Shown one piece after another: positions 27,046-40,257 of a stretch of 64,000 nt of DNA. Positions within the stretch are counted from its first letter, which is position 1. Each line of letters starts with the position of its first letter. Origin of the DNA: Hellea balneolensis DSM 19091 (lineage in GTDB: Bacteria > Pseudomonadota > Alphaproteobacteria > Caulobacterales > Maricaulaceae); NCBI RefSeq assembly GCF_000428525.1, contig NZ_AUAC01000002.1:682001-746000 (forward strand), written 5' to 3'. The translations under genes and the position numbers were made by a program. The notes beneath the pieces are model-generated. The model did not search any database. It was not told the origin of the DNA and worked only from the letters and a program-made list of their open reading frames with translations.

Positions 27046-28284
27046 CTAAGCTGTTAGGCGCAACTCAGTTAGGCTCGCAGCGATGACATCAAAAGCTGCT
27101 TTTAGGTCTGCAGAATTTGTTGCATCGAAATACTTATCCGTATCAGAGGCACAATCACGCAAGAGGTTTTCAGTCTTTGTATCACCGACTTCATAAGCAA
27201 TTGTGTAAACTGTGATGTCTTCGTCTTTGATTTTCAAGCAGATATCCTCAGCTGTATTATCCGCATTTGCTTGTGACCAAGCTTCGTGGAACTGTCCATT
27301 CTTGGAACGCGTATTCGCGCCATCTGTCATCACAATCATAACCTTATCTGTTTTGGTATCACTTTTCGCAGCTGCTTCCTGAAAAGGTGCGCGGCTGTCT
27401 AGAGTTCTCCACCCCCACATCAAACCTGATGGGAGATAAGTCCACCCCGCAGCATTCAATCCAGAGATGGCTGACTTTGTTTCGTTCAGATTATTTGTAA
27501 GAGACGAAATAGGCGTGCCGCAATTAATATTTGTTGTCGCAGGAACCGCAGAACCACCAACAACATCCACGCGCTGCTCTAGTCTTCCAGTACGCGACCC
27601 AACGCAGCCATTCCAATCATTTACGGATTGGCCTCGCGCCGGCATAACGTCAAGCCAATTGGCATTTACATTATTAGGGCCAACATTGACATATTGCGCA
27701 AATGGCACAACGGACATTTTGATGTTGCCGCGATCATTATTAGACGCAAGTTGGTCAACAAGATTATTACCCGCAATCTTAAGCGTCGCCATTTTATTGC
27801 CTCTCATAGACCCTGTTGTATCGAGGACTAAAGCGATCTCAAGCTTCGTATCAGCATATAGAGCTTGTGATGTTGCGCCAATATCAAGACCGGATTTTCC
27901 GAAGATACCCGTAAAATATGTTGGGATTTTATTTTTCGCTTCAACAGTAACAAGATCGCCATCGCGTCTGATATCTTCGAGTTTGATATTAACCCCCTCA
28001 GAGCCTGGATAAACTGACTGCAAATACTCATTCGCCGCTTGGTCAAGCTCAGCTTGCGTCTTGAACTGACCTTTCGCCGCCATAAGCGCAATCGCATCCG
28101 TTGTATCTTGCAAGCGCTGTTTAGCAAAATAACCGTTAGACGCATCAACAGAAACAGCCAATCCGCCGATTAAGATAGCTATCGAGACAGCTGCCATAAC
28201 GGCGAAATTGCCTTTTTCATCTTTTTTAAATTGCGCCGCTGTATTGGCTAATTTTGTCTTAAGTGTCTTAGTTGCATTTAACAT
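27046..28284 (-). CDS. TadG-like pilus-assembly protein with von Willebrand A domain
   Basis: About 412 residues from ATG 28284, which has the ribosome site GAGGA; a longer start at 28347 is less likely. The N-terminal TadE/G part has one membrane helix (GNFAVMAAVSIAILIGGLAV) after a basic segment. A vWA domain follows with MIDAS motif DTTGS and later VMIVMTDGANT. TadG-type proteins are inner-membrane or periplasmic factors of Flp/Tad pilus systems. No other tad gene is nearby, so it may work with a distant tad locus or be a free-standing relative. Confidence 0.85.
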   Translation of the reverse strand: MLNATKTLKTKLANTAAQFKKDEKGNFAVMAAVSIAILIGGLAVSVDASNGYFAKQRLQDTTDAIALMAAKGQFKTQAELDQAANEYLQSVYPGSEGVNIKLEDIRRDGDLVTVEAKNKIPTYFTGIFGKSGLDIGATSQALYADTKLEIALVLDTTGSMRGNKMATLKIAGNNLVDQLASNNDRGNIKMSVVPFAQYVNVGPNNVNANWLDVMPARGQSVNDWNGCVGSRTGRLEQRVDVVGGSAVPATTNINCGTPISSLTNNLNETKSAISGLNAAGWTYLPSGLMWGWRTLDSRAPFQEAAAKSDTKTDKVMIVMTDGANTRSKNGQFHEAWSQANADNTAEDICLKIKDEDITVYTIAYEVGDTKTENLLRDCASDTDKYFDATNSADLKAAFDVIAASLTELRLTA

Positions 28285-28466
28285 AGTCTTATTCCTCACA
28301 ATATCCGAACCCACATGTTCGGGATTTGCGAGAAGCGTTGCAGACACTCTGCCAATAGGGGAATTTTGTTCGAAAATAACTCAGCCGAGCTAAATTATGG
28401 TAAACAAACCGTTAAATCTTAGGTTTTCACGACCCATCTAAGATAACAATAGGTCAAGAAACAAAG

Positions 28467-31289
28467 TTACCTCTCAGGTAAGACTTGAATGCGGTAAGCT
28501 TGTTTTGGATCAAAGAGTGTCTTGGCGAGCGGTTTTAGATCATCCACTGTCATGTTTTGATACGCCTCGAACCGGCTGCGGTGGCGCTCAAGACTTTCCG
28601 GGTCGGATTGAGACTCAGAAATGATGTTCATCCAATAGCCATTACTCTCAAGGCTTGTTTCGATACGCTCACGTGCGGGCTTTATGGCCCGTTCAAATAA
28701 TGCCGCGTCAAAGTCTCCCGCACGGAATTCTGCGGCGATCTCATCAACTTTCGCACTGATACGATCAATATCATTGGGGTTTAGCTCTAAAGATGCACCT
28801 ATATAGCCAAAGCCGGGATAAATGCGCGGGTTGTAGGAAAAGGCGGATGGTGAATAACTTGCCCCCTCCTCTTCTCGCATAACCTCTGTCAGCCGTAATT
28901 GAAACATTTCTGAAATCATACTCACGCGTCTTGAGGTCGTAATATTAGTACCGTCGGGCGCAGGCCAATAGCTTCGCAAAAGAGCTGTCTCCGCCTCGCC
29001 AGCATGAGACAATTTTATAGGGCGCGGGGACCCTTTGGCAAATTTCAGCTCTGTATCAACGCTTTCGAGCGATGGAATATCGGCTTTAAACTTTGGCAGA
29101 GCTCCGAAAGTTCGAGCCACTTGGTCTATAACAGCCTCAACATCAACATCTCCGACAACCCCAATTTCAACGGCTTCCGATGTCAACTTTGGATCGAGCC
29201 ATTTTTGTAATTCAGACATCTCAATTTCAATTAACTCATCTTCATCAGGAATTCCAAAACGTCTGTCTCCGGACCGAAGCAAGCGCTCGACATCACGTGC
29301 GGCCACCCCTCCGGGTGTACTGTCTAGCGTGGGATAAAAAGACTGTATGTAATTATCATAACGTGACTTAACTTCAGCGCGATATCCTGGAGCTGTGGCA
29401 TAAGCGGCCATAAGATTGAGTTGATCGCTTATATTATCAGGTACAGTCGCACCTGACATATACATACGCCGGGATCCAAAATTAATTGATGCGCCAACTG
29501 TTTTCCCAGCCATCAATGTCTGAATATCATCAGCGCTATGCGCCTTGAGCCCGGCCAAGCTGAGCATATTCGGGGCAAACCACTTAAATCCTGGATATTC
29601 TTCTGGAAAAAAAAGCTCTCCCTTACCGAGCGCGACGCTAATTGATATGACGTCTTTCTGATAAGGCGTCTTCTTTATATTTAAGCGCACATTATTTTCG
29701 AAAATGATTTGCTCAAATTCGATATCCTCAACTGTTTTTCTGGAGACCACTTTACCGGGAACACCAAATTCCGTGTAAGCAAATTCTGTCTTCTTCGTCT
29801 CGGCCAAAGGCTGGACTTTCACAGCGCGGCTATCTTCCAGTGCCTTTAGCATTACGTTTTCAGCGTCTTCGATAACTCTATTCGTGGAGAGATAAAGTTG
29901 AGCCGTGTCCAACCCCTCCCATTTTGCTTTAAAGGCCTGATGCACTTGTTCGGGCGTGATAGTGTCCGCGTAAGCTTCAAAGCGCTCCAGATTGGCCTTC
30001 GCATCGGTCAGCACTTGATTTGACGAAAAGCTGCTCATGATCTGACGCGCCAAAGAAGATGTACGGCGGGTCGGAGATGTCTGCACGGCAACCTCTAATG
30101 CTTTGCGCGTATTGGCAATTTGTTCGCTCAGCTCATCTTGGGAGAATCCAAACTCATAGGCTTGGCGCAAAGCCTGCTCACCTTGCGCCAAGGCCTTATC
30201 CCATGTTTCAGCTTGCGTGCTCATAGATAATGAAGATAATCCACGAACATCATAAATAGAGGAACTCGAAGCAGAGGCATTTATAAAAGCCGCCTCATCG
30301 CTTCGCGCTATTTTAGCAAGTCGTCGGGACAGGATTCTGTTACCCAGACTCTCAATAAAAGCCGCCTTGCGATTTTCCGCCGTATCTTTGCGCAAATCCG
30401 GGGGCCCCATCACAGTTAAAGAAATTGAGGTTTGAATCTCTGGATCTACATAATATTCCGCTTCGATACCACGCTCGCCGAGCGGTTTAATATCGACGTC
30501 AGATTTGCTTTCACCGACAGACGCCCAGTCGCCGAAAAACTCTTCTATCTTTTCAGACGCATAGTCAGTTTCAAAATCCCCCACCAAGACAATGAAAGTA
30601 TCTTCAGGTCTGTAATATCCTTGATAAAATTCACGAAAATTCTCAGGCGTTACTGACCGGATAGCCTCTTCAGTTCCAATTGGAATACGGTTTGGATAAG
30701 GAGAACCGTCTAAGTAAAATTTCAGTGACGCAATCGATGCTTTATAAGCGGGACTAATGCGTGCGCGCTTTTCTGCCAGAATAACGCCGCGCTCTCGGTC
30801 AATTGCATCCGGGTCAAGCGTGAGATTACTTGCAGTTTCCCGCATTATCATGAGTGTCTCGTTCAAAATATCATCATTCACTTCTGGAAGCTCAAGCTGA
30901 TAAATCGTTTCGTCAAAACTTGTAGAGGCATTGGTGTCCGCGCCAAAAGCTAACCCGTATTTTTCGAGCCGCTTGATCATCTCGCCCTCAGCTATGTTTT
31001 TGGATCCGTTAAACGCCATATGCTCAAGGAAGTGCGCCAGTCCTTCCTGGCCATCTGGTTCGTTTATGGAACCCGTATCAAAGCGCATTAATAATGACGC
31101 TGTGTTTGAGGGAGTCTCATTGGCCATAACAGCATAACGTAGACCATTTTGCAGGCGCCCATACTCAATCTTAGCTTCAGCGGTCAGGTCGCTACGCTCA
31201 TGCTCAAAATATGTTTCGCCAGGAGCTTCTCCGCATGAGATAAGTAATATTGCCGTTGCGGCGGACATGAATAAGTGCTTTCCAAGCAT
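28467..31289 (-). CDS. M16 family zinc metallopeptidase, lipoprotein
   Basis: 940 residues. The lipobox AILLISCGE is at residues 13-21. The inverted zinc motif H86FLEH90 (GLAHFLEHMAFNGS) is followed by zinc-ligand Glu166 in DRERGVILAEKR at the correct distance. The C-terminal half is a second, non-catalytic M16 domain with LRSYWPAPDG and the R/Y region GFGYIGASLELN. It resembles PqqL-type periplasmic peptidases that degrade peptides imported through the outer membrane. It stands alone on the minus strand and diverges from the HAD gene. Confidence 0.92.
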   Translation of the reverse strand: MLGKHLFMSAATAILLISCGEAPGETYFEHERSDLTAEAKIEYGRLQNGLRYAVMANETPSNTASLLMRFDTGSINEPDGQEGLAHFLEHMAFNGSKNIAEGEMIKRLEKYGLAFGADTNASTSFDETIYQLELPEVNDDILNETLMIMRETASNLTLDPDAIDRERGVILAEKRARISPAYKASIASLKFYLDGSPYPNRIPIGTEEAIRSVTPENFREFYQGYYRPEDTFIVLVGDFETDYASEKIEEFFGDWASVGESKSDVDIKPLGERGIEAEYYVDPEIQTSISLTVMGPPDLRKDTAENRKAAFIESLGNRILSRRLAKIARSDEAAFINASASSSSIYDVRGLSSLSMSTQAETWDKALAQGEQALRQAYEFGFSQDELSEQIANTRKALEVAVQTSPTRRTSSLARQIMSSFSSNQVLTDAKANLERFEAYADTITPEQVHQAFKAKWEGLDTAQLYLSTNRVIEDAENVMLKALEDSRAVKVQPLAETKKTEFAYTEFGVPGKVVSRKTVEDIEFEQIIFENNVRLNIKKTPYQKDVISISVALGKGELFFPEEYPGFKWFAPNMLSLAGLKAHSADDIQTLMAGKTVGASINFGSRRMYMSGATVPDNISDQLNLMAAYATAPGYRAEVKSRYDNYIQSFYPTLDSTPGGVAARDVERLLRSGDRRFGIPDEDELIEIEMSELQKWLDPKLTSEAVEIGVVGDVDVEAVIDQVARTFGALPKFKADIPSLESVDTELKFAKGSPRPIKLSHAGEAETALLRSYWPAPDGTNITTSRRVSMISEMFQLRLTEVMREEEGASYSPSAFSYNPRIYPGFGYIGASLELNPNDIDRISAKVDEIAAEFRAGDFDAALFERAIKPARERIETSLESNGYWMNIISESQSDPESLERHRSRFEAYQNMTVDDLKPLAKTLFDPKQAYRIQVLPER

Positions 31290-32206: not shown

Positions 32207-32343
32207 CCATTTTAGCCATTGAATTTCCCTCTCAACCTATTAAGAGGGGATTAACGCCTGATCAGTCCGTCAAGGATTGGTTAAGCTATGAGGTATCTGC
32301 ATGTCGCAGGTAATTGTTACTAAGAGTTTGGGGGTTTTATAAA

Positions 32344-35300
32344 ATGAAACGCACTCTATTATTGGCCGCATCGGCCGCGGTATTAGCCGCACCAACTATA
32401 GCTCAGGAGTTACCGCCAGGTAACCCACTTCCGGGCGAATGCTTCGCACGTGTCATCGTGCCGGCAACTTATGAAACGTCAACGGAACAGGTTGTTCTGC
32501 GCCAAGCTGGCGAGGAGATCGTTAAGATCCCTGGTCGCATGGAAACCGTAACAGAGCGTGTTCTTGTTCAAGAAGAAAGCTATGAGCTTGTCATCGCTGG
32601 TTCAGGCGGCGGTATTGTTCCTGGCCGCGGCGCGGTTACTGTCACAGTCGGCGGAACGTCATACAACATTGACTCTGCAAGAACTGTCACAGACTCAAAC
32701 GGCCGTAGAATTGGTACTGTCGATAGCGACGGAAACATCGTTGGTACAAACGGTTCCGTTTTAGCCGCTAACGCTGTCAACCCACTAACGCTCATCGGCA
32801 GAGGCTCCAACGCCACGTCACTTCGTGTAGGCGGAACAACTTATCGTGTCGCTTCAGACGGAACTGTTCGCAATGCTTCAGGTTCTGCAATCGGAAGCCT
32901 CGGCGCGAATGGTAGCATTATGCGTTCAAATGGAAGTGTACTCGTCAGAAATGCTGTTAATTCCTATGGCGCTAGCACTGGTACACGTTCAGGTCAGCCA
33001 AGCTTCAGCACAGTGACTGAAACTGTTGTTGTTCAAGAGGCCTCAACAGAACTCGTTTCTATCCCGCCTGTTTATGAAACAGTTACTGAAACAGTTGTTG
33101 TTCAGCCTGAGTCGGTTGAATATGTGACTGTCCCTGCGGTTTATGAAAATTATACAGACACAGTCGTTGTGCAAGAAGCCTCGACTGAGCTCGTAACAAT
33201 TCCCCCAGTGTTCGAGACAGTCACAGACACTGTTGTGGTTCAAGAAGCTTCAACAGAACTGGTAACAATTCCTGCAACTTTCGAAACCGTCTCTGAAACC
33301 GTCGTCGTCCAGCCTGCTGGCGTCGAATATGTTTCTGTTCCTGCAACATATGAAACAGTCTCTGAAACAGTTGTGGTCCAAGAGGCCTCAACAGAGCTTG
33401 TCACTATTCCGGCAACATTCGAGACCGTTACTGAAAACGTTGTTGTTCAGGAAGCGTCAACTGAGCTTGTTACGTCACCGCCTGTTTTTGAGACAGTTAC
33501 TGACACTGTTGTGGTTCAAGAAGCGTCAACTGAGCTTGTCACTATCCCGGCAACGTTTGAGAGTGTTTCTGAAACTGTTGTCGTAACGCCAGCTTCATCT
33601 ACATATGAAACTGTTCCTGCTGTTTACGAAACAGTATCTGAGCCTGTTGTTGTTCAAGAAGCGTCAACAGAAATGATTTCTATCCCAGCGACTTATGAAA
33701 CAGTGACTGAAACTGTTGTTGTTCAAGAAGCTTCAACTGAGCTTGTGACTATTCCTGCTGAGTTTGGGACTGTAACTGAAACTGTTGTTGTTCAAGACGC
33801 AACAACCGAGCTTGTGACTATTCCCGCCACATACGAAACAGTAACTGACGTTGTCGTTGTGCAGCCAGCATCTGTTGATTATGCAGTTGTGCCTGCTGAG
33901 TATGAAACATACACAGATACAGTGGTCGTACAGGAAGCGTCAACTGAGCTCGTGACAATACCGGCAACATTCGAAACAGTTTCAGAAACTGTTGTCGTTC
34001 AGCCGCAATCCGTTGAATATGTTGTGGTTCCTCCGCAATATGAAACAATCCAAGAACCTGTAGTGGTTCAGGAAGCCTCAACTGAGCTTGTCACAATACC
34101 GGCAACATATGAAACAGTGACTGACACGGTCGTCGTTCAGCCTGCATCTGTTGAGTATGTCAGCGTTCCTGCTGTATATGAAACAATCCAAGAGCCTGTC
34201 GTTGTTCAAGAAGCATCAACAGAGCTTGTCACTATCCCGGCAACATTTGAAACAGTGACTGAAACAGTCGTTGTTCAACCTGCTGGCGTTGAATATGTGA
34301 CCGTTCCGGCGACATATGAAACAGTTCAAGAATCTGTTGTTGTTCAAGAAGCGTCAACAGAGATGGTCTCTATTCCGGCGACATTCGAAACAGTTACTGA
34401 GACCGTTGTTGTTCAGCCGCAATCTGTCGAATATGTCAGCGTTCCTGCTGTTTATGAAACAATCCAAGAGCCTGTTGTTGTTCAGGAAGCGTCGACCGAA
34501 ATGGTGACAATCCCTGCAACATTCGAAACAGTGACTGAAACTGTTGTCGTAACGCCGCAAACTGTTGACTATGTCAGCATTCCAGCGACTTATGAGACTG
34601 TTCAAGAAGCTGTCGTTGTTCAAGAAGCCTCAACTGAGCTTGTCACTATCCCGGCAACATTTGAAACAGTGACTGAAACAGTCGTTGTTCAGCCTTCTGG
34701 CGTTGAATACGTCTCTGTTCCGGCCGTTTATGAAACAGTTACTGAAACAGTTGTTGTTCAAGAAGCCTCAACTGAGCTTGTCACTATCCCGGCAACATTC
34801 GAAACAGTTACTGAAACTGTTGTCGTAACGCCGCAAACTGTAACGTATCAGTCTGTTCCGGCTGTCTATGAAACAGTATCCGAAGCCGTTGTGGTTCAAG
34901 AAGCCTCAACTGAACTTGTGACAATTCCAGCTACGTTCGAAACAGTCTCTGAAACTGTCGTCGTAACGCCTGCTTCTGTCACTTACGAGACAGTTCCAGC
35001 TGTTTATGAGACAATTCAAGAGCCTGTTGTTGTTCAAGAAGCGTCAACTGAGCTTGTAACGATCCCTGCAACATTCAAAACTGTTACAGAAACTGTTGTT
35101 GTTCAAGAAGCCTCAACTGAGCTTGTCACTATCCCGGCAACTTATGAGACTGTTTCTGAGACATATGTTGTTCAAGAAGCAGCTAGTGAAATGGTCACAA
35201 TCCCAGCGACGTTCGAAACAGTCACTGAGACTGTTGTGGTTCAGCCGCAATCTGTGGATTACGTCTCTGTTCCAGCTCAATACGAAACATATCAGGAAGC

Positions 35301-38300
35301 TGTTGTGGTCCAAGAAGCCTCGACTGAGCTCGTAACAATCCCCGCGACTTTTGAAACGGTTACTGAGACTGTTGTTGTTCAAGAAGCTTCAACTGAGCTT
35401 GTCACTATTCCGGCAACTTACGAGACTGTTTCTGAAACAGTTGTCGCCAGAGAAGCGACGACAGAGCTTGTGACTATTCCTGCTACATTTAAAACTGTCA
35501 CTGACACTGTCGTAGTTCAGCCGCAAACAGTGGAATATGTATCTATCCCTGCCGAATATGAAACTTATCAAGAGACAATTGTTGTCCAAGAAGCGTCAAC
35601 TGAGCTCGTAACAATTCCTGCAACATTTAAAAATGTTACAGAGACTGTCGTTGTTCAAGAAGCCTCAACTGAGCTTGTGACTATTCCGGCCACTTTTGAG
35701 ACTGTCACTGAAACAATCGTTGTTCAGCCTGAAACAGTCGAATATGTTGCTGTTCCGGCGAAATTCCGCACAGAGCAACAAACATACGTTCAGCAAGAAG
35801 CAGCTAATCAGCTAAGAATCATCCCTGCAACTTATGAAACAGTTACAGAGACAATTGTTGTTCAAGAAGCCACCACACGTCTTGAAGTCGTTCCTGCGAC
35901 TTATAAAACAGTGACTGAAACAGTTGTTGTTCAACCAGCACGTGTTGATATTGACGTTATTCCGGCGAAATATGAAACACGCTCCGAGCGCGTTCTCATT
36001 GAACCTGCTCGTGAAGAGTGGAAGCCAGGTAGCCAAGCTATCAATGCAGGTCAACTTGGTGCGGGTGGTCGTATTAATACGAACACACAAGGCCAGTTTA
36101 CTGTCTTTAACGGCGTCTCTGAGCAAGTTGTTCAATCCACACAAACAATCGTGTCACAGACAGGTGAAATTCTCTGTCGTGTCTTGATCCCTGCGAAATA
36201 CAAAACAATCACTAAGCAGGTTGTTGTGTCTCCGGCCCGTACAGTCGAACGTACTATTCCGGCTGTAACGAAGCAGATCACGAAGCGTGTTGTTGACCGT
36301 GAAGCGACGACTCGTGAAATCCCTGTTCCTGCACAGACACAAACAGTAACGCGCCGCATCGTTAAGACACCGGCCCGTGTTGTTGATGGCGGATCTACAG
36401 GTTCATTTGGCGGCGGAAGTTATTCCGGTTTTGTCGATAGCAATAGCGATGGCCGTGATGACCGTGACGGTCTCTCACGTACAGCAGCTGCAGCTGCGGA
36501 TCGTGCCGGCGGTGGACGCCGCGGCGGTGGTTCAGGCCTTAATGCTAACGCTCAAGGCGGAAACTTCAGCCAGAGAATGGGCACAGTTTCAACACGTGTT
36601 GTTGCTGAAGAAGCTAAAGTTGTTGAACGCCGTATTCCAGCTGTCACGAAAACAGTGTCGCGCCGTGTTGTGAAAACTCCAGCCCGCACACAAGAGCGTG
36701 TCATCCCAGCGAAAACATCAACTGTAACGCGCCGCGTTGTTGACCGTCCTGCATCTACGCAAGAACGTGTCATCCCGGCTGTCACAAAAGTCGAAACACG
36801 TCGCCGCGTCAAAAATCCGGCCCGCACAGCTGAGAAGGTCATTCCGGCCATCACGAAAACTGTATCTCGCCGTGTTGTTGACCGTCCTGCGTCAACACAA
36901 GAGCGCGTCATTCCTGCTGTCACTAAGACACAGACGCGCCGCGTTGTGAAAACTCCGGCTTCAACACAAGAGCGTGTTATTCCAGCTCGTACACAACAGG
37001 TTACACGCCGCGTTGTGAAAACTCCGGCATCAACGCAAGAGCGCGTTATTCCGGCTATCACCAAGATGGAAACACGTCGCCGCATTAAGACACCTGCGTC
37101 TACAGCTGAGAGAGTTATCCCCGCTGTAACTAAGACTGTGTCTCGCCGTGTCGTTAAGACACCGGCTCGCACACAGGAACGTGTCATTCCGGCTGTCACA
37201 AAAACACGCACTCGCCGTGTTGTTAAGACACCTGCTGCGACTCAAGAGCGGACAATTCCAGCTGTAACGAAGCAAGTTACTCGCCGTGTTGTTGACCGCC
37301 CTGCGTCTACGCAAGAGCGTGTTATTCCAGCTGTCACTAAGATGGAAACACGTCGTGTTATCAAGACACCGGCTGCGACTGTTGAACGTGCTGTTCCAGC
37401 AGTGACAAAAACTGTGTCTCGCCGCGTTGTCAAAACACCGGCGGCTACGCAGGAACGTGTTGTTCCGGCTATCACGAAGATGGAAACACGCCGTGTCATT
37501 AAGACACCCGCGTCAACTGTCGAACGTGTTGTTCCCGCTGTAACGAAGCAAGTGTCACGCCGTGTTGTGAAAACTCCGGCTCGTGTCACTGAGCGTTCTA
37601 TCCCAGCTGTCACAAAGCAGGAAACTCGCCGCGTCATCAAGACACCAGCAAGCACAATCGAACGTGCTACGCCGGCTGTTACGAAGACTGTGTCTCGCCG
37701 CGTCGTTAAGACACCGGCCCGCACACAAGAGCGTGTTGTTCCGGCTATCACGAAGATGGAAACTCGCCGCGTCGTTAAGACACCGGCTGCGACATCTGAG
37801 CGCGTTATCCCGGCAGTTACAAAGCAGGTCACACGCCGTGTTGTTAAAACACCGGCCCGCACACAAGAGCGCGTTATTCCGGCTGTCACGAAGATGGAAA
37901 CACGCCGTGTCATTAAGACACCCGCGTCAACTGTCGAACGTGTTATCCCGGCTGTAACAAAAACATTGTCTCGCCGTGTTGTGAAGACACCTGCTGCGAC
38001 ACAAGAACGTGTCATTCCGGCTATCACGAAGATGGAAACACGCCGTGTTGTTAAAACACCCGCGTCAACTATCGAACGTGCTACTCCGGCTGTGACAAAG
38101 ACTGTGTCCCGCCGCGTCGTCAAAACACCTGCTCAAACACAAGAGCGCGTTATTCCGGCTGTTACTAAGATGGAAACACGCCGCGTTGTGAAGACACCTG
38201 CGTCTACTGTCGAGCGGACTGTCCCAGCGATAACGAAGCAAGTGTCCCGCCGTGTTGTGAAGACGCCAGCGTCAACACAAGAACGTGTCATTCCGGCTAT

Positions 38301-40257
38301 CACTAAAATGGAAGCACGTCGTATCGTTAAAACTCCGGCACAAACAGTCGAGAAGGTCATACCGGCCGTCACGAAGACTCTTACGCGCCGTGTTGTTAAG
38401 ACACCGGCTCAAACACAAGAGCGTGTTGTACCGGCTATCACGAAGCAAGAAACACGTCGCCGCATCAAAACTCCGGCTCGCACTGTCGAGCGGACAATTC
38501 CTGCGGTCACAAAGACTGTGTCTCGTCGCGTCGTTAAAACTCCGGCTTCAACACAAGAACGCACTATTCCGGCTCGTACGGAACAAGTGACACGCCGTGT
38601 CGTTAAGACACCGGCCCGTTCAGTTGAGCGTGCTGTTCCGGCTATCACAAAGCAGGAAACACGCCGTGTTGTGAAGACGCCAGCGTCAACACAAGAGCGC
38701 GTCATCCCTGCCGTTACTAAGATGGAAACACGCCGTGTCATTAAGACACCGGCTGCGACTATCGAACGTGCGGTACCGGCTGTCACGAAAACGGTCTCTC
38801 GCCGCGTCGTTAAGACACCGGCTCGTACACAAGAGCGGGTTATCCCGGCCGTGTCCAAGCAGGTTCAGCGCCGCGTCATGCGTACACCAGCGTCAACTAC
38901 TGAGCGCGTTATCCCGGCTGTTGTTAAGCCTGTAACTCGTCAGGTCGTTAAGACACCGGCCCGTACACAAGAGCGCGTTATTCCGGCTGTCACGAAAACA
39001 GAAACACGCCGCGTCGTTAAAACACCAGCGTCAACTGTTGAACGTGCCATCCCGGCAATCACGAAGACTGTTTCACGCCGCGTCGTTAAAACACCAGCCC
39101 GGACACAAGAGCGGGTCATCCCGGCTGTGTCTAAGCAGGTGACACGCCGTGTCATGCGCACACCAGCCTCGACACAAGAGCGGGTTATCCCGGCTGTGAC
39201 GAAAACGGAAACACGTCGCCGCATCAAAACTCCGGCTGCAACGCAAGAGCGTCGTATCCCGGCTGTGACGAAGCAAGTGACACGCCGCGTCGTTAAGACA
39301 CCAGCCACAACGCAAGAGCGCGTTATCCCGGCTGTGACGAAAACGATTACACGCCGCGTGCCAAATGCAGCACCTCGTGTAGAGCGCCGCGTAATCCCGG
39401 CCCGTTATGACACTATCACTGTTCAAAGAGTGGCTGAACCAGCCCGGACAGAGACACGCGTCATTCCGGCTCAGTACGGCACAATCGAACGTCGCACACA
39501 GACCTCTCCTGAGCGTGCTGAGTGGCGTCAGGTTCTCTGCGAAGCGAACGCGAACAGCACTGTTATCTCCGCTATCCAGCGGGCTCTGAAAACTCAGGGT
39601 TACTATACAGGTGCCATAGACGGACGCTTAGGCCGTGCTACTTACGCAGCGGTTGAGCAATTCCAGACACAAAAAGGTCTTTCAACAGGCGGCCTAACGC
39701 TAACAACAGTTGAAGCCCTTGGTGTAAACTGGCGCTCAATGGTCTCTGGTACATCAGGCGTGACTACTGGCGGCTTTACGTCTGGCGGAACTGTTTCCGG
39801 TGGATCGACCGGCTTCACAACCGGTACGTCTGTTAGCGGTTCAACTGGCTTCTCATCAGGCGCGATAAGCGGCGGTGCGGCTAGTGGTTACACAGTCGGA
39901 GCAGACGGTTCTGTCCGCGATGCGTCCGGTGCTATGATTGGCCGTGTTGATGCCTCAGGCAATGTTGTGAACTCAGCAGGCCAGATCATCATGCGCGGCG
40001 TATCAGGCTCATCTGTGGGCGGCGCGGTAAGCGGTGCAGCAGGTTCAATGTCCGGTGGTTCAGTCGGTTCTGCTATCAGCGGCGCTGCAGGCTCAATGTC
40101 TGGCGGTTCTGTAGGCGGAGCTTCCGCAGGCGGCTTTACAGTTCGCGCTGACGGTTCAGTGACTAACGCCTCAGGTGTTGTAATTGGACGCGTCGATGCG
40201 AATGGTAACATCATTGATGCGGCTGGCCGCGTCATTGGCCGCGCAACTCGCGGCTAA
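32344..40257 (+). CDS. giant secreted 23-residue-repeat protein with peptidoglycan-binding domain
   Basis: 2,637 residues from ATG 32344, which starts a clean signal peptide MKRTLLLAASAAVLAAPTIA. An ATG ten codons earlier would add a non-signal leader. Domain order: a pair of about 36-residue glycine-turn motifs (about 103-206), an acidic 23-residue repeat array (about 221-1226, 44 copies), a glycine-rich linker with a calcium-loop-like DSNSDGRDDRDG (about 1366-1377), a basic array of the same period (about 1278-2396), a peptidoglycan-binding domain (about 2404-2465, IQRALKTQGYYTGAIDGRLG) and a Gly/Ser-rich tail ending in two more glycine-turn motifs. Short relatives that I recall from other Proteobacteria have only a few acidic and a few basic copies before the same domain. 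The product is probably periplasmic or envelope-spanning and bound to the wall. The function is unknown. Confidence 0.9.
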   Translation: MKRTLLLAASAAVLAAPTIAQELPPGNPLPGECFARVIVPATYETSTEQVVLRQAGEEIVKIPGRMETVTERVLVQEESYELVIAGSGGGIVPGRGAVTVTVGGTSYNIDSARTVTDSNGRRIGTVDSDGNIVGTNGSVLAANAVNPLTLIGRGSNATSLRVGGTTYRVASDGTVRNASGSAIGSLGANGSIMRSNGSVLVRNAVNSYGASTGTRSGQPSFSTVTETVVVQEASTELVSIPPVYETVTETVVVQPESVEYVTVPAVYENYTDTVVVQEASTELVTIPPVFETVTDTVVVQEASTELVTIPATFETVSETVVVQPAGVEYVSVPATYETVSETVVVQEASTELVTIPATFETVTENVVVQEASTELVTSPPVFETVTDTVVVQEASTELVTIPATFESVSETVVVTPASSTYETVPAVYETVSEPVVVQEASTEMISIPATYETVTETVVVQEASTELVTIPAEFGTVTETVVVQDATTELVTIPATYETVTDVVVVQPASVDYAVVPAEYETYTDTVVVQEASTELVTIPATFETVSETVVVQPQSVEYVVVPPQYETIQEPVVVQEASTELVTIPATYETVTDTVVVQPASVEYVSVPAVYETIQEPVVVQEASTELVTIPATFETVTETVVVQPAGVEYVTVPATYETVQESVVVQEASTEMVSIPATFETVTETVVVQPQSVEYVSVPAVYETIQEPVVVQEASTEMVTIPATFETVTETVVVTPQTVDYVSIPATYETVQEAVVVQEASTELVTIPATFETVTETVVVQPSGVEYVSVPAVYETVTETVVVQEASTELVTIPATFETVTETVVVTPQTVTYQSVPAVYETVSEAVVVQEASTELVTIPATFETVSETVVVTPASVTYETVPAVYETIQEPVVVQEASTELVTIPATFKTVTETVVVQEASTELVTIPATYETVSETYVVQEAASEMVTIPATFETVTETVVVQPQSVDYVSVPAQYETYQEAVVVQEASTELVTIPATFETVTETVVVQEASTELVTIPATYETVSETVVAREATTELVTIPATFKTVTDTVVVQPQTVEYVSIPAEYETYQETIVVQEASTELVTIPATFKNVTETVVVQEASTELVTIPATFETVTETIVVQPETVEYVAVPAKFRTEQQTYVQQEAANQLRIIPATYETVTETIVVQEATTRLEVVPATYKTVTETVVVQPARVDIDVIPAKYETRSERVLIEPAREEWKPGSQAINAGQLGAGGRINTNTQGQFTVFNGVSEQVVQSTQTIVSQTGEILCRVLIPAKYKTITKQVVVSPARTVERTIPAVTKQITKRVVDREATTREIPVPAQTQTVTRRIVKTPARVVDGGSTGSFGGGSYSGFVDSNSDGRDDRDGLSRTAAAAADRAGGGRRGGGSGLNANAQGGNFSQRMGTVSTRVVAEEAKVVERRIPAVTKTVSRRVVKTPARTQERVIPAKTSTVTRRVVDRPASTQERVIPAVTKVETRRRVKNPARTAEKVIPAITKTVSRRVVDRPASTQERVIPAVTKTQTRRVVKTPASTQERVIPARTQQVTRRVVKTPASTQERVIPAITKMETRRRIKTPASTAERVIPAVTKTVSRRVVKTPARTQERVIPAVTKTRTRRVVKTPAATQERTIPAVTKQVTRRVVDRPASTQERVIPAVTKMETRRVIKTPAATVERAVPAVTKTVSRRVVKTPAATQERVVPAITKMETRRVIKTPASTVERVVPAVTKQVSRRVVKTPARVTERSIPAVTKQETRRVIKTPASTIERATPAVTKTVSRRVVKTPARTQERVVPAITKMETRRVVKTPAATSERVIPAVTKQVTRRVVKTPARTQERVIPAVTKMETRRVIKTPASTVERVIPAVTKTLSRRVVKTPAATQERVIPAITKMETRRVVKTPASTIERATPAVTKTVSRRVVKTPAQTQERVIPAVTKMETRRVVKTPASTVERTVPAITKQVSRRVVKTPASTQERVIPAITKMEARRIVKTPAQTVEKVIPAVTKTLTRRVVKTPAQTQERVVPAITKQETRRRIKTPARTVERTIPAVTKTVSRRVVKTPASTQERTIPARTEQVTRRVVKTPARSVERAVPAITKQETRRVVKTPASTQERVIPAVTKMETRRVIKTPAATIERAVPAVTKTVSRRVVKTPARTQERVIPAVSKQVQRRVMRTPASTTERVIPAVVKPVTRQVVKTPARTQERVIPAVTKTETRRVVKTPASTVERAIPAITKTVSRRVVKTPARTQERVIPAVSKQVTRRVMRTPASTQERVIPAVTKTETRRRIKTPAATQERRIPAVTKQVTRRVVKTPATTQERVIPAVTKTITRRVPNAAPRVERRVIPARYDTITVQRVAEPARTETRVIPAQYGTIERRTQTSPERAEWRQVLCEANANSTVISAIQRALKTQGYYTGAIDGRLGRATYAAVEQFQTQKGLSTGGLTLTTVEALGVNWRSMVSGTSGVTTGGFTSGGTVSGGSTGFTTGTSVSGSTGFSSGAISGGAASGYTVGADGSVRDASGAMIGRVDASGNVVNSAGQIIMRGVSGSSVGGAVSGAAGSMSGGSVGSAISGAAGSMSGGSVGGASAGGFTVRADGSVTNASGVVIGRVDANGNIIDAAGRVIGRATRG
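32650..32960 (+). repeat. N-terminal pair of glycine-turn motifs
   Basis: Two copies of a motif of the form aromatic, ..., DG-V, NASG, IG-V, D-NG-IV, NGSV. The second carries YRVASDGTVRNASGSAIGSL. They match the pair at the extreme C-terminus, so the repeat arms are bracketed by the same module. Confidence 0.75.
33004..36021 (+). repeat. acidic 69-bp (23-residue) repeat array, 44 copies
   Basis: Each unit has a half such as PATFETVTETVVV and a half such as QEASTELVTI, with no Lys or Arg and three to four Glu, so each unit carries about -3 to -4. A 46-residue alternation is common, QEASTEL units followed by QPxxVEY units. The array closes with an Arg-rich transition and EEW at 36013-36021. 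Some neighbouring 138-bp blocks are almost identical in DNA (for example around 34,225 and 34,640), pointing to recent unequal recombination. Confidence 0.9.
36175..39530 (+). repeat. basic 69-bp (23-residue) repeat array, about 46 copies
   Basis: Three leading copies (36,175-36,390), a glycine-rich spacer, then about 43 copies. A unit has a half such as PAVTKTVSRRVVK and a half such as TPASTQERVI, about +4 net. Position by position it aligns with the acidic unit (Pro-Ala start, Thr-Val in the middle, Ala-Ser-Thr near the end, Ile last). Units alternate TKTVSRR and TKMETRR, giving a 138-bp higher-order period. The array ends with AEW just before a Cys, as the acidic one ends with EEW. Confidence 0.9.
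39882..40254 (+). repeat. C-terminal pair of glycine-turn motifs
   Basis: Two copies (YTVGADGSVRDASGAMIGRV and FTVRADGSVTNASGVVIGRV, each followed by DA-GN-V), separated by a Gly/Ser-rich stretch with two GAAGSMSGGSVG units. Same module as at 32,650-32,960. Confidence 0.75.

Follow-up and report, generated by a model that had tools for sequence, protein, structure and literature searches.

A single gene in the 64,000-nucleotide stretch of DNA analysed here (the window) encodes a 2,637-residue protein that carries an acidic and a basic array of 23-residue units, and covariation among its relatives gives good support to an antiparallel pairing of these two arms. In our preferred reading, to which we assign a probability of roughly two in three (0.68), the protein would be a giant charge-complementary hairpin whose arms zip together antiparallel, anchored in the wall and acting as a passive strut or tether of set length. 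We infer that the arms pair within one chain, that a disulfide forms, and that the protein sits in the periplasm as a strut or tether; a beta secondary structure of the arms is predicted from the model of a short homologue.

Gene layout and arm lengths

The giant gene forms a single open frame on the forward strand (32344..40257, ATG to stop) with no internal stops, and the frame is also open upstream, from a TTG at 32314. All features given here lie on this strand. The translation begins with a Sec-type signal peptide (MKRTLLLAASAAVLAAPTIAQ; 32344..32406), recognised by eye and showing no lipobox. Cys1 (residue 33; 32440..32442) starts the acidic arm (32443..36018), which comprises 46 units of 23 residues and ends at Trp1 of an EEW motif (residue 1226; 36019..36021). 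A hinge linker of 51 residues (36022..36174) leads to Cys2 of a GEILC motif (residue 1278; 36175..36177), where the basic arm of 46 units begins (36178..39522). This arm ends in a WRQVLC motif (39523..39540) that contains Trp2 (residue 2394) and Cys3 (residue 2399). The C-terminal part contains a PG_binding_1 domain (PF01471; residues 2408-2459; 39565..39720; E 5.8e-10; 39.6 bits against a curated cut-off of 23) and, preceded by a Gly/Ser-rich stretch, a DUF3659 match at the C-terminus (PF12396; residues 2597-2636; 40132..40251; 27.7 bits against 24.8). The preliminary description had reported an uninterrupted gene with a signal-peptide-like start, two arrays and a peptidoglycan-binding domain, and the open frame and the Pfam match bear this out; the beta-flower-like insert described next and the DUF3659 match are additions to it.

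Both arms are interrupted by an insert. Acidic unit 3 contains two beta-flower-like copies (32593..33003, approximately residues 84-220, limits approximate), over which Bflower_2 (PF21785) matched at about residues 98-186 with 33.4 bits, below its cut-off of 38; this insert is missing from the giants L056, L060, L061 and L065. Basic unit 4 carries a Gly-rich insert (36385..36576, limits approximate). With inserts included, the net charge was -142 for the acidic and +171 for the basic arm. Self-identity at a period of 23 was 0.57 in the acidic and 0.67 in the basic arm and was higher at a period of 92 (0.73 and 0.76), and the 23-residue phase was free of insertions and deletions across residues 229-1217 and 1420-2385. 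No Pfam or NCBIfam model reached its cut-off over the units of the window's arms; sub-cut-off matches included Caudo_bapla_N (23.1 against 26.7 bits) and PRK14069 (20.7 against 123). A PDB sequence search with the window protein gave significant matches confined to the wall domain. Exactly three Cys residues, counted from Cys1 onward, were present in 24 of the 26 complete giants, the exceptions being L057, with two additional ECNC motifs in its basic arm and seven Cys, and L066, with one additional Cys.

We counted units from Cys1 to the EEW Trp and from Cys2 to the EWRxVLC Trp, including end half-units and insert-bearing units; for the giants, script-printed pieces were summed by hand. The window protein has 46 acidic and 46 basic units between its bounding Cys and Trp residues, 92 in total; the single repeat of the preliminary description is in fact two related unit types, acidic and basic. 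Of the 26 complete giants, 23 had the same number of units in both arms: 18 at 54:54 and five, including the window, at 46:46. The three others (42:41, 54:50 and 52:48) may be genuinely unequal or may stem from collapsed draft assemblies. Compared across genomes of the family, 18 of the 26 giants share 54:54 and the others range from 42 to 54 units; the recurrence of 54:54 across genera points to a length favoured by selection. On a 31-row tree, the 46:46 state appeared at two places, in the window lineage and in another genus, with moderate support (91/98) for the branch separating them, and the 42:41 giant was sister to a 54:54 form.

Short relatives and the spread of the giants

Short relatives with 3-12 units per arm were found in Hirschia, Hyphomonas, Henriciella, Robiginitomaculum, Saprospiraceae, Thiotrichales and other records. 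Arms were equal in 74 of 80 named relatives (65 by script alone, nine by hand reading); one was unequal (L194, whose first acidic module is shortened), and five were not judged (L162 and L205, in which the gene start is missing, and L176-L178). The equal forms comprised 52 at 4:4, two at 5:5 (L135, L174), one at 7:7 (L192), two at 12:12 (L185, L187), six at 3:3 and eleven with four modules of three units. Records with equal arms were labelled Alphaproteobacteria, Gammaproteobacteria, Bacteroidia/Saprospiraceae, Nitrospirota and Gemmatimonadetes. In a separate set of 20 loci, partly overlapping the 80 records, 14 were recognised by script and six were not; 12 of the 14 were 4:4, L115 was 5:5 and L121 was uncounted. 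Short forms counted within the window's family included six at 4:4 and one at 6:6, the latter with an insert and counted by hand. The window protein fits the frame of these relatives, Cys-arm-Trp followed by Cys-arm-Trp-xxxx-Cys, and shares with them the EEW and EWRxVLC joints and the C-terminal domain. It is an expanded form of a small architecture, as the preliminary description had proposed, but the arms of that small architecture are equal in number (in most cases 4:4) rather than three acidic and four basic copies.

In the four-module form, acidic and basic modules number two of each kind, and every module has three units (L181, L184, L186, L190, L191, L195, L196, L197, L198, L201 and L202), in records labelled Gammaproteobacteria, Thiotrichales, Desulfobacula and Nitrospirae. 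The two Saprospiraceae proteins with 12:12 arms, in a frame of 712 residues, represent an expansion outside Proteobacteria. PG_binding_1 was present in all 41 aligned short homologues, and Pfam models other than wall-binding ones matched at most three of the 41 each. The NCBIfam matches listed for the first short homologue were all far below cut-off and lay in its C-terminal part, and a PDB profile search with the aligned short homologues hit wall-binding domains, with no significant match across the arms. Gene neighbours at 33 short-form loci were, by eye, ordinary families and gave no clue to function.

The window genome also encodes two paralogues. A short one (G000:C5:49866-50822; L002 1270-2514) has 414 residues and, by eye, 4:4 arms; it had no Pfam match at E 0.001 and thus no recognisable wall-binding domain. 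The other is a vWA protein of 905 residues (G000:C2:321793-324507; L004 145-2862), which was found at E 1e-60 in one of 59 family genomes, its own. It carries both unit types, joined once as basic unit-RDKDGSF-acidic unit and once as basic units-LTEHGTY-acidic unit.

A giant-type C-terminus (66-100% identity across the full 137-residue query) was detected in 38 of 137 genomes searched of the window's family, the window included. Besides the window, 33 of these genomes were taken, and G001, G048, G053 and G104 were left out, their frames being short; eight of the 34 loci lacked an arm or part of one at contig ends or gaps (L042, L044, L063, L067, L068, L076, L077 and L078). Among the 26 complete giants, open frames were between 2,465 and 3,052 residues long. 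In wider searches, 105 of 398 genomes of the order matched at E 1e-15 and nine of 385 genomes of the class at E 1e-20; the matches listed from outside the family were short, every frame longer than 1,500 residues belonging to the window's family. The "extreme expansion" of the preliminary description is thus a real expansion but no lone outlier, given the 38 giant-type genomes and the 18 giants at 54:54. That description had named equally long arrays in many related genomes, already described, as counting against it; arrays of such length proved common, and no description of them turned up in the literature searched, preprints excluded. Two further observations were made in these searches. A 1,087-residue frame in another family genome (G054:C36:28952-29089) showed 54% identity to basic units over 46 residues and is possibly another host protein of 23-residue units, and three viral contigs from IMG/VR (L209, L210 and L211) encoded a protein related to the C-terminal region, with 41% identity.

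The array itself appears sound. The longest exact direct repeat inside the window gene is 59 bases, and mean DNA identity was 59% and 64% between neighbouring units of the two arms and 0.64 and 0.67 between units, short of the "highly identical tandem repeats" by which periscope proteins are recognised. Two giants lie on single-contig genomes, both at 54:54 (G005, 3,036 residues; G045, 2,958 residues). Because of the short exact repeats and these two genomes, assembly collapse or artefact is an unlikely source of the window array. Units at the same position in different genomes were more alike than shifted ones (in the acidic arm, 0.66-0.86 compared with 0.55-0.63 over all other positions), which held for both arms in 10 of 11 compared genome pairs; the exception was L051-L052, where the basic arm did not comply, apparently because one of its units was dropped in the scripted comparison. 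The arrays are therefore old and without recent homogenisation. Of the 25 other complete giants, 19 lay between a homologue of the window's HAD phosphatase and one of rplU. L048 and L054 retained the HAD gene only, and L053 (at a contig end), L057 and L066 rplU only; near L051, none of the six neighbour genes sought was found. Upstream of the HAD gene, the window encodes a TadG-like vWA protein and an M16 peptidase, assigned by Pfam (27046-28347 and 28467-31289, both on the reverse strand).

Covariation and unit types along the arms

Covariation was computed for the 18 giants with 54:54 arms after removal of the per-residue mean over genomes, which cancels fixed patterns. With all residues considered at the level of units, the antiparallel register i+j=56 gave the peak (z 4.6; runner-up 1.8), and the correlation of unit charge in this register was -0.38 (n = 864), whereas none of the other 60 registers fell below -0.10. 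At the residue level, a single antiparallel diagonal stood out among about 3,340 registers with a z of -17.3; its neighbours at ±2 reached -4.7 and -3.8, and parallel pairing of the arms was rejected, the best parallel diagonal reaching -4.3. When genome labels were shuffled 200 times, the minimum was -3.2 compared with -7.0 observed. The diagonal adjoining the main one showed like-charge covariation (z +7.2), probably because the basic swap from K-T to D-R brings in an Arg next to the Asp as well.

The main diagonal rested almost wholly on one pair, acidic position 17 with basic position 2. When position 17 was omitted, the main diagonal left the ten lowest, and its ±2 neighbours became the lowest (-5.6 and -4.2). 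Across the 26 giants, acidic Lys/Arg17 stood opposite basic Asp/Glu2 in 123 of 138 cases, compared with 18.8 expected at random places (maximum 36 in 5,000), 53 in the next best antiparallel register and 57 in the best parallel one. In the 54-unit forms, the swaps fell on 16 different pairs of units. Those of the three unequal giants lie near the hinge and kept the hinge register at 4/5, 4/5 and 4/4 acidic sites, whereas the register counted from the base matched only 0, 1 and 1 of them.

In the window, the register i+j=N+2 matched all four basic Asp2 and four of the five acidic Lys/Arg17 residues, the unmatched site being in acidic unit 43. The matched pairs are Lys17 of acidic unit 33 (35077..35079) opposite Asp of basic unit 15 (37294-37296), unit 39 (35491..35493) opposite unit 9 (36880-36882), unit 41 (35629..35631) opposite unit 7 (36742-36744) and unit 45 (35905..35907) opposite unit 3 (36295-36297). 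The short 4:4 forms (70 rows, 48 non-redundant, effective number 16) gave their charge peak in an antiparallel register as well (x+y=96, z -5.4), followed by 97 and 95, with the best parallel register at -2.0; the giants predict x+y=97, so that the observed peak is one residue off. Non-charge covariation in these forms was weak (antiparallel 3.8, best parallel 2.6). Acidic-acidic and basic-basic scans yielded mainly short-range signals and no long-range peak comparable to the acidic-basic one.

The arms also resemble each other in the order of unit types. In the 54:54 giants, Pro4 occurs in acidic units 5, 8, 12, 16, every second unit to 40, and then 44, 48, 51 and 54, and Glu19 in basic units 7, 9, 11, 15, every second unit to 39, and then 43 and 50; in the window, the middle stretch of this pattern is shortened in both arms. 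Types matched between the arms at i+j=N+1 with r 0.95 in the window and 0.91 in the 54-unit consensus, a level not attained in any of 20,000 interval shuffles. A parallel register nearly equalled this when it was shifted by one unit (r 0.90 and 0.87). In the 54-, 46- and 42-unit forms, the order of acidic types shows mirror symmetry with unit (N+2)/2 at its centre (33028-35994 in the window; p 0.002 by interval shuffle, the pattern having been noticed before the test), and no covariation accounts for this symmetry. Because the acidic pattern is mirror-symmetric, the types cannot tell a parallel register shifted by one from an antiparallel one. In single genomes, N+1 was not the best antiparallel type register in 12 of 26 (L050, L053, L055, L064, L054, L046, L049, L039, L052, L058, L062 and L065); in L046 and L049, the best was the basic arm's number plus one. 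The best parallel type register exceeded N+1 in L057 and L061, and all type correlations were weak in L056, L058 and L059. The type correlation peaks at N+1 and the charge covariation at N+2, different positions of the unit being concerned.

Shape, rival readings and known systems

We modelled the mature Hirschia maritima 4:4 protein with AlphaFold2 from an alignment of 41 rows (pLDDT 75.8, pTM 0.35; the other four models had pLDDT 66-68). Both arms were modelled as alternating strands of 12 and 7 residues, with two-residue breaks mostly at Pro-Ala-like sites, and the covariation register, derived onto this model, would set long strands against long strands and breaks against breaks. In that register, Cys1 faces the residue before Cys3; since Cys1 thus lies within one residue of facing Cys3, a disulfide is expected at the wall-bound end. 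A Foldseek search with the model gave good matches for the wall domain only (6tci, 4xxt, 5tv7) and no fold for the arms. The best 50 arm matches were mostly long beta-hairpin pore and phage tail proteins with TM ≤0.13, which we did not take as evidence of kinship.

Under the hairpin reading, the protein would be exported via its Sec signal peptide, and the 46 acidic and 46 basic units would align antiparallel and pair residue by residue over their full length, each unit contributing a 12-residue and a 7-residue strand with a break at Pro-Ala. The linker between Trp1 and Cys2 would serve as the hinge, at the tip remote from the wall. A predicted Cys1-Cys3 disulfide clasp at the opposite end would adjoin the peptidoglycan-binding domain, which would anchor the rod to the wall, and the rod itself would be a passive structural element, an envelope strut or tether of set length. 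A wall-anchored fibre, as the preliminary description had suggested, is the likeliest role; the pairing of the arms had been overlooked. An extended strand rises 0.33 nm per residue, so a straight ribbon of 46 units would measure about 350 nm and one of four units about 30 nm, and Pro-Ala kinks may shorten it. The short form could span the periplasm; the giant would be too long to stand upright there and would need to run along the wall or be coiled.

The pairing could also be intermolecular, with the acidic arm of one chain and the basic arm of another forming an antiparallel swapped dimer or polymer; we regard this as unlikely, though it is the likeliest of the alternatives. Covariation gives the same signal for pairing within and between chains, Cys2 at the hinge seems to be without an obvious partner, and the mirror-symmetric acidic types are as a two-fold dimer might need. 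However, the acidic-acidic and basic-basic scans contain no long-range peak of the acidic-basic kind, and an antiparallel two-fold dimer proposed from the mirror pattern, for want of a matching peak there, is retained only within this alternative and the ruler reading below. Hinge linkers measure 50-58 residues in the 26 giants and 18-83 in 54 readings of short 4:4 forms, and even the shortest should still permit a hairpin. The tight DGS and HGT turns of the vWA paralogue also suit pairing within the chain in that protein; the giants' register predicts the hairpin apex on the Gly of both turns, exactly as found.

Two readings of the rod's role appear improbable to a similar degree. The first is a molecular ruler, in which a single-chain, charge-zippered beta hairpin of selected, fixed length (54 unit pairs, about 0.4 µm if fully extended) would define how far apart things lie along the envelope; it might do so as an antiparallel dimer that carries a wall-binding domain at each end. 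The second is a fibre exposed outside the cell, serving as a surface adhesin or in biofilms, in place of a periplasmic strut. Long rods of repeats are characteristic of proteins at the cell surface (PMC9704523), and the NCBIfam adhesin HupY (NF047961) gave matches in two parts of the acidic arm, which at 37.4 bits fall a long way short of its cut-off of 1250. Set against this, neither an adhesive head nor an outer-membrane export domain exceeded its Pfam cut-off, a wall-binding domain is present, and six short kin within one genus of the same family have, by eye, a lipobox-like start.

It is very unlikely that each arm folds alone, as a solenoid or fibre, and that the arms are equal through duplication of one whole array. 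The units of both arms have, by eye, a common ancestor, and the parallel type register shifted by one agrees well, better still in L057 and L061. The residue-level covariation is nevertheless antiparallel and limited to one register, arms of matching length turn up repeatedly, at many sizes and in several phyla, where the acidic arm can already be told from the basic one, and the 46:46 state arose in both arms. An assembly artefact or neutral expansion deserves almost no credence: repeats are a classic source of assembly errors and three giants have odd counts, but the short exact repeats, the two single-contig genomes, the conserved neighbours and the position-specific likeness of units all stand against it.

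We found no family, fold or publication describing the repeat in Pfam, in NCBIfam above cut-off, among PDB sequences or in the searched literature. If the hairpin reading is true, its fold principle is absent from these sources: two separated arrays in one chain would evolve in step, by number and by residue, since they are zipped. The code of acidic position 17 against basic position 2 at i+j=N+2 would then predict contacts over arms of more than 1,000 residues, envelope-length control would become testable in giant-bearing bacteria, and the zipper would suggest beta-ribbon rods of chosen length.

SMC and Rad50 have two equal antiparallel coiled-coil arms in one chain, with a hinge and a domain at opposite ends. 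The proposed zipper resembles them in its equal, antiparallel arms of one chain and in a hinge opposite the domain, whereas it would be beta rather than alpha, extracytoplasmic, charge-complementary in its arms and without an ATPase. Lpp, a short helical trimer, tethers the outer membrane to the wall; such tethers share with the zipper model a set-length spacer between wall and envelope, and we know of no relation between Lpp and the zipper protein. The short peptidoglycan-binding relatives share with the window giant the order Cys-arm-Trp, hinge, Cys-arm-Trp-Cys, the equal arms and, in the 4:4 forms, antiparallel covariation; they differ in having 3-12 units per arm compared with 42-54 in the giants, and some have, by eye, a lipobox start. 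Periscope proteins (SasG, Aap, Rib) are, like the giant, single-chain repeat rods anchored at one end; each of their repeats folds by itself and the copy number varies between strains (PMC9704523). The giants differ in that two complementary arrays seem to pair with each other and that the count of 54:54 is shared by different genera.
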